From Acidobacteriota bacterium (GTDB taxonomy: Bacteria > Acidobacteriota > Terriglobia > Terriglobales > Acidobacteriaceae), in the NCBI GenBank assembly GCA_021780315.1, contig JAJXYY010000025.1:62001-126000 (forward strand): a stretch of 64,000 nucleotides of DNA. The letters are read 5' to 3'. Below the pieces are notes generated by a model. It did not search any database and was not told the DNA's origin. It saw only the letters and a program-made list of their open reading frames with translations. Shown here in pieces: positions 10,517 to 34,407 of the stretch. Each line of letters opens with the position of its first letter. Position 1 is the first letter of the stretch. Both the position numbers and the translations under genes were made by a program.

Positions 10517-11628
10517 AGTGGATGCGTCTCTCTGGGCTGATGCGCAAGGAAGTGTACGAGATCGTTCGCGATCCCTCTAGCATTGCCATCGCGCTTGTTC
10601 TTCCGCTGGTACTGCTGCTGTTGTTTGGCTATGGCGTGTCACTAGATGCACGGCATATTGCTATCGCGGAAGTGGTCGATCAGCCCACCCAGCTGACGGC
10701 ATCTTTTCTAGCGGAGCTTGAAAGCTCGCCATGGTTTCGTCCGACCATCTATCCAGATCGAATCTCCGCGGAGCAGGCGATGATGCGTGGAGATGCCGAT
10801 GCCATCCTGTGGTTGCGAAGCGACTTCACACGACTCGCCTACCGATCGGGCAGTGCTCCGATACAACTCACCGTCAATGGCGTTGATGCCAATCAGGCAC
10901 GCATGATTGAGAACTACGTGACTGGAGCCTGGCTGATCTGGCTGCAACAGCAAGCAGCACAGGGGGCCACGGGCATTGCAACTCCGGTGATCGCGGATAC
11001 GCGAATCTGGTTCAACCCTTCGCTGCGGAGTCGTGACTATCTTATCCCCGGACTGATCGCAATTATCATGACGCTCATCGGCGCTCTGCTGACCGCGCTG
11101 GTCGTTGCGAGAGAGTGGGAACGCGGAACCATGGAAGGCATCATGGTAACTCCGGTGGCCAGAACCGAGATTCTGCTGGGTAAGCTGATCCCCTACTTCA
11201 TCATGGGCATGGGCGGCATGGTGATGTCTACAGCAATGGCTGTCTTTTTGTTCGGCGTTCCGCTGCGTGGATCGTTACTTATCCTCTTTGGTACTGCGGC
11301 ACTCTTTTTACTCACGGCGCTGGGCATGGGACTGGTGATATCGGTGCTGGCACGCAGCCAGTTTGTTGCTGCGATGGTGGCCATCGTCACAACGTTTTTA
11401 CCAGCATTTATCCTGTCCGGCTTTCTGTTTGATATTCGCTCCATGCCGCAAATTATTCAGGCACTGACGCACATTGTGGCAGCGCGCTATTTTGTGACCA
11501 TGCTGCAAAGCTCGTTTCTAGCGGGAGACATCTGGTCTGTGCTGATTCCCAATGCGTTGGGAATGGGCACCCTCTGCGCGGTGTTTCTAGGCATTGCGCT
11601 GCTACGGTTTCACAAGAGGCTGGACTGA
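10513..11628 (+). CDS. ABC-2 type permease, YbhS-like
   Basis: 371 residues. One N-terminal transmembrane helix (SIAIALVLPLVLLLLFGYGVSL) is followed by a large periplasmic domain of about 140 residues and a C-terminal block of five helices with the ABC-2 motif REWERGTMEGIMVTPV. It pairs with the next gene as the transmembrane half of the exporter. It overlaps the ATPase gene by 4 bp and the next permease by 1 bp (TGATG), so the three should be made stoichiometrically. The substrate cannot be read from the sequence; E. coli homologues are linked to drug and Na+/Li+ export. Confidence 0.9.
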   Translation: MKWMRLSGLMRKEVYEIVRDPSSIAIALVLPLVLLLLFGYGVSLDARHIAIAEVVDQPTQLTASFLAELESSPWFRPTIYPDRISAEQAMMRGDADAILWLRSDFTRLAYRSGSAPIQLTVNGVDANQARMIENYVTGAWLIWLQQQAAQGATGIATPVIADTRIWFNPSLRSRDYLIPGLIAIIMTLIGALLTALVVAREWERGTMEGIMVTPVARTEILLGKLIPYFIMGMGGMVMSTAMAVFLFGVPLRGSLLILFGTAALFLLTALGMGLVISVLARSQFVAAMVAIVTTFLPAFILSGFLFDIRSMPQIIQALTHIVAARYFVTMLQSSFLAGDIWSVLIPNALGMGTLCAVFLGIALLRFHKRLD

Positions 11629-12746
11629 TGCACCAGATATTCCAACGCGTGATTGCACTTGCCATCAAGGAACTGCTGGCCCTGTTGCGCGATTCAGCCA
11701 GCCGGGCTGTGTTGATTGGTCCGCCCATCATCCAACTGCTGGTCTTCGGTTACGCGGCGACCTTCGAACTGAAGCATGTTCCGTTTGTCGTATACAACCA
11801 AGATCAGGGGCAGATGTCGCGGGAGTTTATTGCCCGATTTTCAGGTTCGCCCACTTTTGATCTGCTGCGCGTGGTCCACGATCAGAAGTCGCTGCAGAGT
11901 GCGATCGACGATAAGTCCGCACTGATGGCGATGGACATCGGTCCGAACTTCAGCGCTGATCTGGAAGCCGGACGATCGGCACACATCCAACTGATTCTGG
12001 ACGGAAGAGACTCCAATACCGCCGGCCTTGCGATTGGCTATGCGCAGTCGATCGTCACCACATTCAACCAGACACAGATTGCAGCGAACGGAGCGCGAGC
12101 TCCCGCTGCGGTGTTGCTCAATCGGGCATGGTTCAATCCGAATCTCGACTCGCGCTGGTTTATCATCCCGGGCATCTGCGGCATCCTTACGCTGCTCGTA
12201 AGCCTACTTACCACAGGGCTTTCGGTTGCTCGCGAGCGTGAGATGGGAACCTTTGACCAATTGCTGGTGACGCCTATGCGGCCAAGTGAGATTCTGCTGG
12301 GGAAAGCGCTTCCGGGTTTTCTGGTTGGCACGGTCGAGGGTTCGCTGATTCTAATTGTGTCCGTTTTCTGGTTTCATATTCCGTTTACCGGAAGCCTGCT
12401 GGCACTTTATTTTGGATTGTTTTGCTTCCTGCTTTCGACCGTGGGGATTGGTCTGATGATCTCGTCGCTCGCGGCTACTCAACAGCAAGGTCTGCTGGGA
12501 GTGTTTCTCTTCATGGTTCCGGCGATTGTTCTATCCGGATTCTCAACGCCGATTGCGAACATGCCACTTGCGGTCCAGTACATCACCTTGATCGACCCAC
12601 TGCGGTATTTTCTGATTATTCTGCGCGGCTGCTTTCTGGAAGGAGGCAGCGCAGCGCTCTTCTGGCCGCAGTATTGGCCGCTTGTGCTGATTGGGATGAT
12701 CAGCATGATCATAGCTGGCAGACTCTTTCGCAGCCAGCTTGCATAA
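11628..12746 (+). CDS. ABC-2 type permease, YbhR-like
   Basis: 372 residues, a paralogue of the preceding permease with the same architecture: one N-terminal helix, a periplasmic domain, then five helices with REREMGTFDQLLVTPMRPSE. It ends the tolC-ybhGFSR-like operon. Convergence of two ABC-2 permeases with one dual ATPase, an adaptor and an outer-membrane channel indicates a tripartite type I-like exporter spanning both membranes. Confidence 0.9.
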   Translation: MHQIFQRVIALAIKELLALLRDSASRAVLIGPPIIQLLVFGYAATFELKHVPFVVYNQDQGQMSREFIARFSGSPTFDLLRVVHDQKSLQSAIDDKSALMAMDIGPNFSADLEAGRSAHIQLILDGRDSNTAGLAIGYAQSIVTTFNQTQIAANGARAPAAVLLNRAWFNPNLDSRWFIIPGICGILTLLVSLLTTGLSVAREREMGTFDQLLVTPMRPSEILLGKALPGFLVGTVEGSLILIVSVFWFHIPFTGSLLALYFGLFCFLLSTVGIGLMISSLAATQQQGLLGVFLFMVPAIVLSGFSTPIANMPLAVQYITLIDPLRYFLIILRGCFLEGGSAALFWPQYWPLVLIGMISMIIAGRLFRSQLA

Positions 12747-28827: not shown

Positions 28828-29730
28828 CTACTTAGAATGCTTGCCAAGTACAGCTTCGTCCCTACGCTTCAGGAGAGATCGTAGAATTGGCGATTGAAAG
28901 TGTCTCTTTACCGTGATTGCGTAAAAGTCTTCAAACAGTTGAGGCACAACGCAATACTGTACCAGAACTCCAGTTCTCAACTCATCCTGCACAACTACCG
29001 TAGGTACGAGTGCGATGGCGTCTGTGTCCCGAGCGAGGAGTCGCAGCATCGCCATGTCATCCACTTCGGCAAGCACCCGATAGGTGACCCGATGTTGCTC
29101 GCAGAGGAGATCGAAGCCTGCACGGATCTCACTCTCCAGACTCGGAAGGACAATCGTAGCTGTATCCAGATCATCTGGAAATACAAACGGTCTTCTGGTG
29201 CGGCGAGGCTTTCCGACCAGACTTACCGGCTGCCTAGCGATCCGATGCGATTGCCATGGATTCTGAGCATCGCGGTAGACTCTACGGTTCGATAGAACAA
29301 GGTCCAGACTGTGAACGCTGAGACGATTGAGCAGGTCCGTCAGCGTCCCAGACCGTAGCACCATCTCAAGATCTTCAAGCTGCAGTAGTGGCCGCACAAA
29401 GTTGTCCTGGAAGTTACGGGAAAGGGTTGCTACAGCCCCGATTCTCACAGTCTGGCGCTTACGAAATTCTCCGTCCTTCATCAAGGCATAAAGCTCATTG
29501 CCTGCTGCAAAGATGGTCTCGGCGTAGGTCAACGCGAGACGACCTGCTTCGGTGAGTTGAAGCCTTCTGCCTTCACGCAAAAAAAGCGCCTGACCTAGAT
29601 CCTCCTCTAACGCTTTGATCTGCGACGAAAGCGCCGACTGCGATATGTGTAACTGCGCTGAAGTCCGGGTCAAATTGCCGTCCTTCGCAACAGCCCAGAA
29701 ATATTGCAGGTGGTGATAGTTCAATCTCAT
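28828..29730 (-). CDS. LysR-type transcriptional regulator
   Basis: 300 residues. The N-terminal winged HTH (LNYHHLQYFWAVAKDGNLTR, SAQLHISQSALSSQIKALEE) is followed by a periplasmic-binding-protein-like effector domain starting near residue 95 (VRIGAVATLSRNFQDNF). The opening sequence resembles NhaR-like LysR proteins. It is divergent from dabB with a 100-bp gap, the classical arrangement for a LysR regulator controlling its neighbour; LysR genes also accompany dab operons in autotrophs. The effector is unknown; bicarbonate/CO2 limitation is a reasonable inference. Confidence 0.9.
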   Translation of the reverse strand: MRLNYHHLQYFWAVAKDGNLTRTSAQLHISQSALSSQIKALEEDLGQALFLREGRRLQLTEAGRLALTYAETIFAAGNELYALMKDGEFRKRQTVRIGAVATLSRNFQDNFVRPLLQLEDLEMVLRSGTLTDLLNRLSVHSLDLVLSNRRVYRDAQNPWQSHRIARQPVSLVGKPRRTRRPFVFPDDLDTATIVLPSLESEIRAGFDLLCEQHRVTYRVLAEVDDMAMLRLLARDTDAIALVPTVVVQDELRTGVLVQYCVVPQLFEDFYAITVKRHFQSPILRSLLKRRDEAVLGKHSK

Positions 29731-29830
29731 TTATTTATCTTCTTTCAAATCGAACGTTAGCTTCTAAACAATGCATTTTACAGAACTGCGAGACTAGATC
29801 AAAGTCATAAGAGTGAAAGGACTTCCGCAA
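29731..29830. promoter_or_regulatory. Divergent control region between the LysR gene and dabBA
   Basis: 100 bp, clearly AT-richer than the coding sequence around it. It must hold both promoters and the LysR sites. An AAAGGA ribosome site lies 9 nt before the dabB ATG. I could not single out a convincing T-N11-A operator. Confidence 0.5.
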
Positions 29831-31492
29831 ATGGCTCACCTTCATCATCAATGGCCTTCTCACATGGCCGTTATCCTTTGTATTCCACCTCTCCTGTACT
29901 TTCTGGGTGTGGCGGGGATACGGATCTTACCAGCTACGAAGCTCTCGATTTCAAAAGCCTGGAGCTTGGCGAGGACTGTCAGTAATGCAGTCTTGTTCTT
30001 CTCGCTTGCCTGCTGCAGCGATGCACTTTGGGATGCACCCTCTCTGGCCGGCAGAGCGCACATCGCGTCCATCGTCTCACTTGGCCGAAGCCAAATCAGC
30101 TTCCGCTTCGACTTGGTCGAATCACTCATGCTACTGCTTGTGACCTTTCTGGGATGGGTCATTATCAATTACTCACAGGCCTACATGTCGGGCGATCCGC
30201 ACGAACGCAGCTACGTTGCGCGCTTGTTGCGTACGCTTGCCTGCGTAAGTTTGCTTGTAGTCACAAACAGCATCGCTGTCTTCCTGATCGCTTGGGTCTC
30301 TACGAGTCTTTCACTGCACGGTCTTCTCACCATCTACCCAACACGGCAGGCAGCGGTGATAGCCGCACATAAAAAGTTCCTTGCGAGCCGCCTGGGGGAT
30401 CTCACGTTGCTGGGTGGAGTCATACTGCTCGTATCGCAGACCAAGAGCTTTGAACTGGATCAAATCGCAGATTACGTCTCGAAGCTTCACGCTGTTCCCC
30501 TTTCGATCCACGTTGCAGCACTGCTTCTTGCTATCAGCGCGATCATCAAGTCTGCGCAGCTTCCATTGCATGGATGGCTGATTCAAGTAATGGAGGCTCC
30601 CACGCCTGTCTCCGCTCTTCTGCACGCAGGTATTGTCAATCTTGGCGGGTTCATGCTGATTCGGATGGCTTCTGTGATCAACACCACGCAATCAGCACAG
30701 GCCCTACTGGTGATTGTGGGTAGCGCGACTGCGGTCATTGCCTCGCTGGTAATGACCACCCGTATCAGCATCAAAGTCCATCTTGCGTGGTCTACCTGTG
30801 CGCAGATGGGATTTATGCTGATGGAATGCGGGCTCGGCTTATACGCTCTTGCGTTCCTGCATCTTCTGGCGCACTCGCTGTATAAAGCGCATGCATTCCT
30901 CGGTTCCGGCGGTACGGTAAACCAGGCGAAGATCAAGGGCGTGATCCCGGTGGTCCGCTCAGAGAAGCTCTCTGCACTACTCGCAAGTGGCCTCTACGGG
31001 CTCGTAATGGCGGCTCTAGGCGAGTTCTTGTGGCGGCCTACTGCCCGCATAGATGCGACTACCGGCTTCTGTGTTGTGGTCGTCGGGCTTGCTATTGCTG
31101 GCATTCTTGCTGCGGTGCACTCAACGCACAGCGTAGTAGTCTCGCTGATTCTTGCGGGAACCGCTTTCGCAGTTAGTATCCTCTATTTTGGCTATGACAC
31201 TCTCTTCCAGAGGGTCGTACCAGCAATAAGCATTAGCGTAGTACAGCAGAAACCCTTGATCCTCTTTGCGCTGGTCTGCTTCGGTCTTCTGTATGTCATA
31301 CAGACGATGATCCGTGTGTATCCTCGCGGGACTTTCGCTACTGCACTCTATCCGTGGATTTATGCCGGGCTCTACCTCGATGAGGTCTTTACACGGGCGA
31401 CGTTTCGTCTTTGGCCTGCGAATCAAGTTTCAAAACTAACAGAGCGAAATCACACCGCTCAGCTATTCGAAAGCAGAGGAGAGAGGCGATGA
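29831..31492 (+). CDS. dabB: DabB: NuoL/MrpA-like membrane subunit of the DAB inorganic-carbon accumulator
   Basis: 553 residues with about 14 transmembrane segments and the proton-translocation fold of complex I subunit L. Landmarks are the TM7/TM8 region LLLAISAIIKSAQLPLHGWL followed by MEAPTPVSALLHAG, with the conserved Lys and Pro. In DAB systems this subunit uses the cation/proton gradient to drive carbonic-anhydrase-like hydration of CO2 by DabA, trapping bicarbonate in the cytoplasm. ATG 29831 was chosen over a GTG at 29813 because of AAAGGA 9 nt upstream. It overlaps dabA by 4 bp (ATGA). No other complex I genes are present, supporting DabB rather than NuoL. Confidence 0.88.
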   Translation: MAHLHHQWPSHMAVILCIPPLLYFLGVAGIRILPATKLSISKAWSLARTVSNAVLFFSLACCSDALWDAPSLAGRAHIASIVSLGRSQISFRFDLVESLMLLLVTFLGWVIINYSQAYMSGDPHERSYVARLLRTLACVSLLVVTNSIAVFLIAWVSTSLSLHGLLTIYPTRQAAVIAAHKKFLASRLGDLTLLGGVILLVSQTKSFELDQIADYVSKLHAVPLSIHVAALLLAISAIIKSAQLPLHGWLIQVMEAPTPVSALLHAGIVNLGGFMLIRMASVINTTQSAQALLVIVGSATAVIASLVMTTRISIKVHLAWSTCAQMGFMLMECGLGLYALAFLHLLAHSLYKAHAFLGSGGTVNQAKIKGVIPVVRSEKLSALLASGLYGLVMAALGEFLWRPTARIDATTGFCVVVVGLAIAGILAAVHSTHSVVVSLILAGTAFAVSILYFGYDTLFQRVVPAISISVVQQKPLILFALVCFGLLYVIQTMIRVYPRGTFATALYPWIYAGLYLDEVFTRATFRLWPANQVSKLTERNHTAQLFESRGERR

Positions 31493-34029
31493 AGACATCT
31501 GACTACACAGCTGCAACAGACGCTCATACCGACACAGTGTTGAAGGCCATAGGCACTGCCTGTCGACGGATCGCTCCAACCTGGCCGTTGGATCAATTCA
31601 TAGCCGTAAACCCCTACTGGGGCTTGATTGATGAGTCCATCGACGATGCTGCACTCCGTCTAGAGAGCTACTCCGGCTCTCGCATGCTGATGCCGCGGAG
31701 CTTTTATCGCAAACTGTGGAAGACAGGTTCGCTGCGCTCCGTGCACTTGCAGCAGGCACTGCAACGCTGTTTGGCCAGCATTTCGCTGCAAGAACTGCAG
31801 GACGAGCTTGAGAACGAGCCGCCGTCCGCTCCTCGCCTGCCTCTCATGACATCGATCGCCGATTCCCAACGCGACTTGCTCCACGGGATGTCTATCAACG
31901 ATTTTGTCAGGCACACTGTCAGTCAGCACTGCGCGTCTTACTTCGACCATGTTCAATCCTCATGGGATGCGCAACACAAGAAGAACCTCTACCAAAGCTG
32001 GTTGCACCATGCATCGGCAGACATGAGTCCGTGGTTGCTCATGGGATTGCACAAGGTGCGTCATCACGCTCGTTCCTTGCCCACCGACCCGTTCGCAATG
32101 ATCACGCTCGCGTTGCAGACACTGCCTGTACCAAAGGAAGAGTGGGCAGAGTACCTGACAGCCCTCCTGATGAATATCAATGGTTGGGCTTCATGGTGTG
32201 CTTTTGAACGCTGGCAAGCTGTGCTGGCTGAAAGGAATGATGACCACATCGTTCAACTGTTGGCGATCCGACTGGCCTGGGAGCATTTTGTGTTCGTGCA
32301 TCTGCTTGATGCCAATGAGCCATCGGCCTGGACGATCGGGTGGGATACGCTTCGGGTGTGGCGCCTGCAGTCGCGGACTCAGCCGTCCGTTGACTGGATC
32401 CTGCAGGAGGCGCTCGAAATCTCATACCAAACCGATCTTTGTACAGGGATGAAGAACCATTTGCCCGAAGTAAGTTGCCATGGTCCAAACATTCCTGACG
32501 TACAAGCGGTGTTCTGTATCGATGTTCGCTCAGAGGTGTTTCGTCGCGCCTTTGAGAAGTGTTCCAGTTCGATTCAAACGCTGGGCTTTGCTGGCTTCTT
32601 TGGTTTGCCCATCTCCTACACGCCACTTGGAACTGTTACCGAACGTCCACAGTTGCCTGGTCTACTCGCTCCCAAACTGCGTGTGACTGACAGCACCGGC
32701 TCACCGAAAATAGACGACCAAACGAGAAGCCAAAGAGCACTCAATCTACGACTGAAATCCTTCTGGAAAGACTTCCGCTCGTCCGCAACCTCCACGTTCA
32801 CATTTGTTGAGTCATGTGGGCTCTTCTACTCCATCGCATTACTCAAAAGCACTCTGCCCAATCTGAAGCTCAAACTCGAATCTGGCAACAACGCGTCTGC
32901 TAGCGATCCTTCCCTGCGCCCACACCTCTCTGAGGCCAGCGATCATGACGCTCCCTCGATAGAAGCGTTGTGTGATTTGGTTGCTGCCATTCTAACCAAC
33001 ATGAGCCTTACGACAGGCTTTGCGCGACTGCTTTTACTTACGGGACACGGTAGCCAGACGGTCAACAATCCGCACGCTGCAGGACTCGATTGCGGGGCCT
33101 GTGGTGGCCAGTCTGGCGAAGTGAATGCAAGAGTGCTCGCAGGACTTCTAAACAAGTCTTCAATACGAGCTGGCCTTGTCGCGCGCGGTATCCTACTACC
33201 CGACACCACGTATGTTCTTGGAGCATTGCACAACACGACAACCGACGAAGTCACAATCTTTGACACTGACCTGTTACCGGAGAGCCATGCCTCTGATTTC
33301 ACGCGGGTGAAGGTGTGGCTGGAGCAAGCGGGTCACCAGGCACGGGTCGAACGTGCTGCTTCCGTTGGGATCAAGGCACACGGAGCCACTTCGGAACAAC
33401 ATCTACTCGACCAATTCCGTCTTCGCAGCCGGGATTGGTCTCAGGTGAGGCCGGAGTTGGGACTTGCGAACAACGCCGCCTTCCTCATCGCGCCACGTGT
33501 GCGCAGCAGAGGCCTTGATCTGCAGGGCCGTGTCTTCCTGCACGAGTACCAGAGCGCGAGCGACCCCAACGGTACCGTCCTCGAGTCCATCATGACCGCT
33601 CCGATGATTGTCACCAACTGGATCAATATGCAGTACTACGCATCCACTGTCGATAATCGCCAATACGGGAGCGGAAACAAGGTCCTTCACAATGTCGTGG
33701 GTGGACGCCTGGGGGTATTTGAAGGCAATGGCGGCGACCTTCGTATTGGGTTGCCGCTCCAGTCCCTGCACGACGGACAGATGTTACGACACACACCTCT
33801 CCGGCTAAGTGTATTCATCGAAGCTCCACAAAGTGCAATCAGCGCGGTCATCTTGAAGCACAAAGTTGTCGAAAGCCTCATCCATAATGCCTGGCTTCAT
33901 CTATTCCAGATCGCGCCGGAATCAGGGACCATCTCACGCTACACGAATGGAGTCTGGGAGCCGATCGAACGGAACGACTCCAAGTCAACCCAAGAGGAAA
34001 CGGTAGTCACGAAAGAAGCTTATGCGTAA
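31489..34029 (+). CDS. dabA: DabA (UPF0753/DUF2309): zinc-dependent carbonic-anhydrase-like subunit of DAB
   Basis: 846 residues. The beta-carbonic-anhydrase-like zinc site is visible: C343 and D345 in VFCIDVRSE, H520 in TGHGS and C535 in LDCGACGG. The H-to-C spacing of 15 is the same as in the characterised Halothiobacillus protein. The protein is soluble, docks on DabB and converts CO2 to bicarbonate in an energy-coupled, one-way manner. The ATG at 31489 with GGAGAG upstream overlaps the dabB stop; a longer upstream frame runs through dabB and was dropped. Unusual context: no carboxysome, RuBisCO or other carbon-fixation gene occurs in the window. Confidence 0.9.
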   Translation: MKTSDYTAATDAHTDTVLKAIGTACRRIAPTWPLDQFIAVNPYWGLIDESIDDAALRLESYSGSRMLMPRSFYRKLWKTGSLRSVHLQQALQRCLASISLQELQDELENEPPSAPRLPLMTSIADSQRDLLHGMSINDFVRHTVSQHCASYFDHVQSSWDAQHKKNLYQSWLHHASADMSPWLLMGLHKVRHHARSLPTDPFAMITLALQTLPVPKEEWAEYLTALLMNINGWASWCAFERWQAVLAERNDDHIVQLLAIRLAWEHFVFVHLLDANEPSAWTIGWDTLRVWRLQSRTQPSVDWILQEALEISYQTDLCTGMKNHLPEVSCHGPNIPDVQAVFCIDVRSEVFRRAFEKCSSSIQTLGFAGFFGLPISYTPLGTVTERPQLPGLLAPKLRVTDSTGSPKIDDQTRSQRALNLRLKSFWKDFRSSATSTFTFVESCGLFYSIALLKSTLPNLKLKLESGNNASASDPSLRPHLSEASDHDAPSIEALCDLVAAILTNMSLTTGFARLLLLTGHGSQTVNNPHAAGLDCGACGGQSGEVNARVLAGLLNKSSIRAGLVARGILLPDTTYVLGALHNTTTDEVTIFDTDLLPESHASDFTRVKVWLEQAGHQARVERAASVGIKAHGATSEQHLLDQFRLRSRDWSQVRPELGLANNAAFLIAPRVRSRGLDLQGRVFLHEYQSASDPNGTVLESIMTAPMIVTNWINMQYYASTVDNRQYGSGNKVLHNVVGGRLGVFEGNGGDLRIGLPLQSLHDGQMLRHTPLRLSVFIEAPQSAISAVILKHKVVESLIHNAWLHLFQIAPESGTISRYTNGVWEPIERNDSKSTQEETVVTKEAYA

Positions 34030-34318
34030 AATTCTGTTGGTTCACAAGAGTTGCATCCAGTGTATGGCCTCCTGGGCGAGCAACAAGAACATGACGCCCT
34101 TGTCCTTCCTATTCGAAGGCATCATCACGCCACGGAGGATGTCGTAGGCCGGTTGCTTCTCTAGGACGCCTCGCTCCTTGAGAACTACCTTCCTGGGCAT
34201 AGGAAATTTTCTTAGCTCTAACGTTCAGAAAATTTGAACCGTATGACACCAGAAGCGACACTGCTACTCAATCGCAACCTTGTCACTTACCATTTCCAGC
34301 TATAACCTGTTGATTCTA
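34030..34318. other. Intergenic stretch between dabA and tRNA-Leu
   Basis: 289 bp with no convincing gene. A 52-codon minus-strand frame (34042-34200) begins MPRKVVLKERGVLEKQPAYD but lacks a ribosome site and a recognisable family. A palindrome GTTCAGAAAATTTGAAC lies at 34223-34239, similar to the czc-region sites but with a wider spacer. Confidence 0.4.
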
Positions 34319-34407
34319 TGGTGCCCGGAGGGGGACTTGAACCCCCACGACCGGTTAAGGTCTGCGGATTTTAAGTCCGCTGTGTCTGCCGATTTCACCA
34401 TCCGGGC
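34319..34407 (-). tRNA. tRNA-Leu (anticodon TAA)
   Basis: A class II tRNA on the minus strand. The acceptor stem is GCCCGGA/TCCGGGC, the anticodon stem GCGGA/TCCGC closes the loop CTTAAAA (anticodon TAA), a long variable arm follows (AGACCTTAACCGGTCG), and the T-arm is GGGGGTTCAAGTCCCCC. CCA is encoded (plus-strand TGG at 34319-34321). Confidence 0.97.

Follow-up and report, generated by a model that had tools for sequence, protein, structure and literature searches.

A lysR-dabB-dabA unit beside a tRNA-Leu gene in an Acidobacteriaceae bacterium: a predicted proton-driven bicarbonate supply with an accompanying regulator

A stretch of 64,000 nucleotides (nt) from an Acidobacteriota bacterium (contig JAJXYY010000025.1, positions 62,001 to 126,000 of the forward strand; hereafter the window) carries a gene for a LysR-type regulator divergent to dabB and dabA, the genes of a two-subunit DAB complex. 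We consider it likely that the three genes form one unit, in which a predicted proton-driven complex hydrates CO2 to bicarbonate at the membrane, the regulator accompanies it, and the whole was probably gained horizontally at a tRNA-Leu gene that serves as an island site. The source genome (G000; 4.06 Mb in 47 contigs, 99.8% complete) has one DabA.

We suggest the following mechanism. Proton inflow through DabB would power the hydration of CO2 to bicarbonate by DabA at the cell membrane. The LysR protein would bind a conserved footprint in front of dabB and turn on dabBA when CO2 or bicarbonate is short, with Na+ or pH as the alternative signal. The bicarbonate would be supplied to biotin-dependent carboxylases and phosphoenolpyruvate carboxylase, alongside the resident beta-class carbonic anhydrase (beta-CA). 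Islands targeted to tRNA genes, or plasmids, may be the carriers of the cassette.

The regulator gene (28828..29730, minus strand) encodes 300 amino acids (aa), with Pfam matches to HTH_1 (79.5 bits) and LysR_substrate (70.3 bits). The NuoL-like membrane subunit is encoded by dabB (29831..31492, plus strand; 553 aa from its ATG, Proton_antipo_M 140.6 bits). It is followed by dabA (31489..34029, plus strand), which encodes the beta-CA-like zinc subunit of 846 aa (PF10070, 864.2 bits). The dabA ATG overlaps the dabB stop by 4 bp on the same strand, and the two genes are presumably co-transcribed. The first-pass annotation of this DNA had described the same divergent arrangement with the same overlap, and it is confirmed by the coordinates, the reading frames and the Pfam matches. 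The start of dabB is probably ATG 29831 rather than the alternative GTG 29813, because AAAGGA, 11 nt upstream of the ATG, is conserved among relatives and the alignment of several of them begins only at this ATG. DabB has Pfam Proton_antipo_M/N matches, which belong to the Mrp/NuoL families, and no NCBIfam model matched DabA.

For DabA one PDB sequence only was found, DabA2 of Halothiobacillus neapolitanus (PDB 9rd0; 615.8 bits), and the best PDB match of the window DabB is DabB2 of the 9rd0 entries (248.5 bits). When 22 functional residues given in the DAB2 structure paper (PMC13144422) are mapped onto the window proteins, 21 are identical, 11/11 in DabA and 10/11 in DabB. The DabA identities cover the zinc ligands, the Asp-Arg dyad, the site-marking alanine and leucine, and the finger glutamate. 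Residues C343, D345, R347, H520 and C535 of the window align with C351, D353, R355, H524 and C539 of DabA2, and E441 corresponds to the finger glutamate E444. The zinc site read earlier from the same sequence (C343, D345, H520 and C535) is as claimed, counted from ATG 31489. In DabB the proton-path residues R, D, K, S, H, K, S, H, H and K are identical at 10 of 11 sites; at the exception I151 is replaced by V, which is still not the glutamate of NuoL. By sequence, dabBA of the window is an intact two-subunit DAB, with the gene order dabB-dabA. In the DAB2 model, an inward flow of protons by way of DabB and the finger powers the hydration of CO2 in DabA, in one direction only (PMC13144422). As the functional residues are conserved, this model fits the window complex as a prediction. 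The closest named relatives of the window DabA are those of Granulicella sp. clean312 (75%) and Acidipila rosea (69%; locus L032), followed by Polaromonas (52-53%) and Vibrio (45-46%). A further copy with 78% DabA identity (L043, genome G588) lies in a record labelled Rhodanobacteraceae, which the genome collection assigns to the window's own genus.

The regulator goes together with this DAB. Among 39 genomes of the window's family, a LysR match at E<=1e-40 is present in 14 of the 19 with DabA and in 0/20 without it. The five DabA genomes lacking the match hold either contig-edge fragments (G327, G557) or another DabA type (G348, G472, G592), and the close LysR matches adjoin dabB in 15/15 cases. 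Among 80 named loci a LysR of 52-91% identity stands beside dab in 23, divergent to dabB wherever dabB was seen; those of the close Acidobacteriaceae modules are 81-91% identical to the window protein. A close LysR is absent in the other 57. Sixteen of these show, in the same divergent place, a LysR match that is weak and N-terminal (26-41%, at most 56 bits), which argues that the divergent LysR is wider than the window lineage. In the compared pairs LysR is more similar to its window counterpart than DabA is (identities in Acidipila, 90 vs 69%; Polaromonas, 67 vs 53%; Vibrio, 53 vs 45%), hence LysR appears to evolve slowly. Judged from these comparisons, dabBA has in this LysR a dedicated partner that is NhaR-like and slow to evolve.

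The nature of the regulator bears on what the unit does. The best NCBIfam model for the window LysR is NhaR (NF008284), with 131 bits against a cut-off of 219, and NhaR is the best model for six of six module LysRs, all below the cut-off (131-172 bits). The CbbR model (NF045990) gives 57 bits for the window LysR against a cut-off of 450. With NhaR as the nearest curated model, though below its cut-off, Na+ or pH is kept as the alternative signal. More broadly, the unit might be mainly a sodium- or pH-linked transporter of the MpsAB/Mrp kind, whose NhaR-like LysR senses Na+ or pH and not CO2; the Mrp/NuoL matches of DabB would suit this, as would MpsAB itself, for which sodium coupling is argued (cited in PMC13144422). 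However, none of the six LysRs reaches the NhaR cut-off, the zinc site and the Asp-Arg dyad of DabA are kept, and the closest complex of solved structure, DAB2, proved to be sodium-independent (PMC13144422). We regard such a transporter as improbable.

A candidate operator for the regulator lies between the divergent genes. In the alignment, the LysR-dabB intergenic regions share the pattern TTC-N9-GAAC-N19-ATTTTACAGAA at fixed spacing from Acidobacteria to Polaromonas. In the window this operator- or promoter-like footprint, putatively bound by LysR, occupies 29740..29785 (plus strand) with 0/18 specified bases mismatched. Its part TTC-N9-GAA is an inverted repeat and contains T-N11-A, the core of LysR boxes. 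Scored against a consensus drawn from the same module sequences, 13/13 close modules fit with 0-2 mismatches in 18 and 15/18 other modules with 1-4, and the fit beats the best of 200 shuffles in 28/31 modules. In a whole-genome search of 24 genomes, allowing up to 2 mismatches, the pattern is found at dab in 12/15 LysR-dab modules, including 11/11 of the close ones, and all hits with 0 or 1 mismatch are at dab. Its four hits away from dab each have 2 mismatches; one is in the source genome (C45:242366). At the same threshold it is found in 0/10 genomes without DabA, and the backward control gives 0. This concentration of hits at dab suggests that the window LysR most likely has one target.

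We then turn to the bicarbonate itself. The first-pass annotation had seen no carbon-fixation gene in the 64 kb and had proposed searching the full genome for RuBisCO and carbonic anhydrase genes. For the RuBisCO large subunit (PF00016) its statement extends to the whole genome, with 0 matches in the source genome, while 5/14 control genomes match; this search covered neither carboxysome shell genes nor further routes of carbon fixation. There is hence no RuBisCO in the source genome for an autotrophic CO2-concentrating system to feed. In this the DAB of the window differs from DAB2, to which it is otherwise alike in both subunits, as it does in having an NhaR-like regulator that does not follow the CbbR model.

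The search for carbonic anhydrases (CAs) gives a different picture. The source genome encodes one full-length beta-CA with the motifs CADSR and HTDCG and one gamma-CA-like protein, and has no alpha-CA match. Since a beta-CA with intact motifs is present, DAB does not replace a missing enzyme here, and we reject DAB as the only carbon-supply system of this genome. DAB would add an energised one-way bicarbonate supply beside the equilibrating beta-CA. At least one beta-CA match is present in 16/19 DabA-bearing genomes of the family, therefore coexistence of DAB and CA is usual in it. In one relative (G151) there is neither a beta- nor an alpha-CA match and a gamma-CA-like protein is present; iota-CA was not searched. 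The idea that DAB was swapped for extra CAs was also tried and dropped: two or more beta-CAs over 100 bits are found in 0/19 DabA genomes vs 11/20 congeners without DabA (P 1.5e-4), but the groups differ in genus and the DabA group includes many incomplete genomes, and the contrast is not used as evidence.

The third element of our proposal is the site. A tRNA-Leu(TAA) gene (34319..34407, minus strand, ARAGORN) lies 289 bp past the dabA stop, with its 3' end towards the cassette. A tRNA or transfer-messenger RNA (tmRNA) gene is found within 600 bp of 5/13 close modules (Leu, Lys, Gln, Ser and Val), of 1/22 other LysR-dabBA modules and of 2/54 other DABs; two of the 13 are near-identical copies, and contig ends truncate some of the flanks. 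In 8/8 cases the 3' end of the gene is towards the module. For the close modules against the rest (5/13 vs 3/76) the Fisher P is 0.0014 and the Poisson P on flank density is 4e-6 to 4e-5, values to be read with the reservation, unfavourable to us, that the link was spotted first and then tested in the same loci.

The same tRNA gene is a place of gene traffic in related genomes. A tRNA-Leu(TAA) beside a MacB-like permease pair recurs in congeners, where ARAGORN reports it in 12/16 loci, one of them inverted, and none of these congener loci has dab genes. Tyrosine integrases stand 41 bp (G091) and 25 bp (G591) from the congener tRNA-Leu 3' end, and an alpha-CA stands 200 bp from it in G239 (L201:538-1302); both kinds of gene are confirmed by Pfam. 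Partial copies of the tRNA 3' end in the same orientation, resembling attachment sites (att), are located 10 kb away in G591 and 5.7 kb away in G239 (L221:14168-14211), and the pair in G239 encloses the alpha-CA. In G242, at a site without linkage to the permeases, two partial tRNA copies lie 7.6 kb from each other. Because congeners carry integrases, varied genes and att-like copies there, this genus has an island site at the tRNA-Leu end. The window module thus borders the 3' end of a tRNA gene used as an island site by relatives. Elsewhere, two DABs of another type (L076, L103) lie within 140 bp of tRNA-Met and tmRNA 3' ends, the dabA frame of L102 extends 44 nt into a tRNA-Val gene, and the module of L039 (~10541-12200) abuts a frame that reads, by eye, as selB without a start.

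DabA is present in 39/299 genomes of the class, in 19/398 of the family and in 2/29 congeners of the class sample. The 17 genes flanking the window module have only weak matches (28-38%) beside 11 other module loci or in 10 congener stretches adjacent to tRNA-Leu. In trees of 29 modules LysR and DabA yield the same main groups, with some differences. The window DabA pairs with that of G151, which belongs to another genus (100/100; LysR 97/93), and not with the congener G072, and in genus g14 the copies are on separate branches, two of them inside one genome (G260). The patchy distribution, the lack of kinship between flanks and a module tree whose groups run across genera make horizontal acquisition likely. 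Relatives of DabA also occur on 123/72,556 plasmid records, all below 60% identity. The three plasmids examined among 25 listed each have LysR, dabB and dabA in the window arrangement. The mobilizable Pseudomonas plasmid pA16J1 (28.9 kb) has the same lysR-dabB-dabA arrangement with recombinase genes on both sides.

Several further observations weigh against the unit as we propose it. Three loci with DabA of 46-51% identity (L045, L049, L051) have no close LysR. Three modules of family f6 fail the footprint with 5, 6 and 8 mismatches among the 31 scored, and the best fits of three plasmid copies have 6, 3 and 3 mismatches, one plasmid failing. One study describes MpsAB and CA as rarely coexisting and as giving no benefit together (PMC8552792), and the source genome has a beta-CA; this argues against an evident advantage of having both. 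As for the site, no tRNA gene lies within 600 bp in 8/13 close copies, and the set of 13 includes a near-identical pair in g14 with identical flanks. The tRNA-Leu 3' end has no direct repeat in C15:2001-146000 at E<=1e-3, direct repeats of tRNA ends are absent at five modules, and inspection by eye of the open reading frame (ORF) list of the window, on which no profile scan was made, showed no integrase. For want of a direct repeat a classical element bounded by att repeats is rejected for the window, whose copy would be old, eroded or not site-specific.

These features of the site would also fit a DAB that has long been resident by descent and was lost in most relatives, its tRNA neighbourhood being a coincidence. 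Descent would account for a window copy with no att repeat or integrase found, for the copies without a near tRNA and for the g14 copy shared with identical flanks, and it agrees with the fact that all close copies are in one family and in one supported group of the DabA tree (98/96). However, it is at odds with flanks that are unrelated between copies, with a window copy that pairs with another genus rather than with a congener, and with the separate branches in g14, two of which meet in one genome. It also sits poorly with five different tRNA genes that all face the module with the 3' end, and with the plasmid-borne relatives of DabA. We consider descent with loss unlikely, and we prefer horizontal gain of the lysR-dabB-dabA unit. 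Tentatively, one may go further and picture lysR-operator-dabBA as a plug-in, self-regulated CO2 pump that hops between genera and phyla via tRNA-gene islands and plasmids and energises the bicarbonate supply of heterotrophs, the same tRNA-Leu site holding DAB in one species and an alpha-CA in another; we see this wider picture as possible, with more doubt than confidence.

Behind dabA a 41-codon reading frame (34022..34147, plus strand) starts 8 nt before the dabA end. It is likely a remnant of a gene, orf4, which is full-length (176-199 aa) in three relatives and which the window frame resembles in the first ~8 codons only. In these relatives (L032:10534-11061, L033:10534-11130, L043:7498-7974) orf4 overlaps the dabA stop by 8 nt, with 46-48% identity among the three. 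As a known part of the system orf4 was rejected, having no Pfam match, 4 homologues in the protein collection and no function. The congener copy L043/L157 (G588) has its dabA and dabB frames in pieces, by mutation or by assembly error. The apparent reduction of orf4, this broken copy and the beta-CA of the source genome could be taken to mean that the window operon was acquired and is no longer used, a decaying passenger. Against this, the dab frames of the window are open over their full length with the functional residues kept, and the footprint matches 18/18 specified bases; we find decay very unlikely.

Not every DabA locus has the two-gene form. In class families f13 and f9, loci L004 and L006-L012 have DabA with no dabB match within ~1.5 kb on either side, and among such dabB-less loci L115 and L116 have NuoL-like matches at least 4 kb away. 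In the window, the GC content at third codon positions (GC3) is 0.55-0.61 in the cassette vs 0.70-0.74 in the permeases and heat-shock genes to the right, and other window genes are also low. The run at 3554-28542 has mostly lowish GC3 and may be further island cargo; judged by eye from the ORF list, it comprises genes for an arsenic methylase, ACR3, ABC export, a sulfatase and its maturation enzyme, Czc-type efflux and a two-component system.

The window DAB is ordinary in mechanism, and its setting is already known in outline. DAB-type complexes of heterotrophs and pathogens (S. aureus MpsAB, V. cholerae, B. anthracis) have been published (PMC13144422), and in 2017 COGNAT described, for the nuoL-ybcC(DUF2309) operons of its 'clade A', a LysR gene in reverse orientation at the 5' end (PMC5700660). 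The first-pass reading of a DAB operon with its own LysR in a probable heterotroph thus holds in its complete operon and in the lack of RuBisCO, and loses its novelty; the acidic niche that it invokes is conjectural. The COGNAT passage on these operons suggests a membrane energy-converting complex; it contains neither a footprint nor a co-occurrence test, and neither tRNA sites nor a role in carbon supply (PMC5700660). MpsAB of Staphylococcus aureus is alike in being a DAC-family pair in a non-autotroph that can substitute for carbonic anhydrase; S. aureus reportedly lacks CA, whereas beta-CA coexists with DAB in the source genome. In Halomonas sp. CUBES01, likewise a heterotroph, dabA and dabB are proposed to provide bicarbonate and to have been transferred horizontally, in passages that name no LysR, footprint or tRNA site (PMC11338360). 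No account of the footprint and the tRNA sites was found in the open-licence literature (subscription papers were mostly outside the search). What is added to prior work is the footprint, the one-to-one LysR partnership and the placement at tRNA sites.

Last, we note that the open-licence literature searched gave no answer as to which signal bacteria sense at inorganic carbon shortage. If our reading is true, the regulator of the unit and its candidate operator offer a concrete way to put this question. Energised CO2 hydration would then not be confined to autotrophs, and soil and aquatic heterotrophs would share it as a portable trait that brings its control element along.

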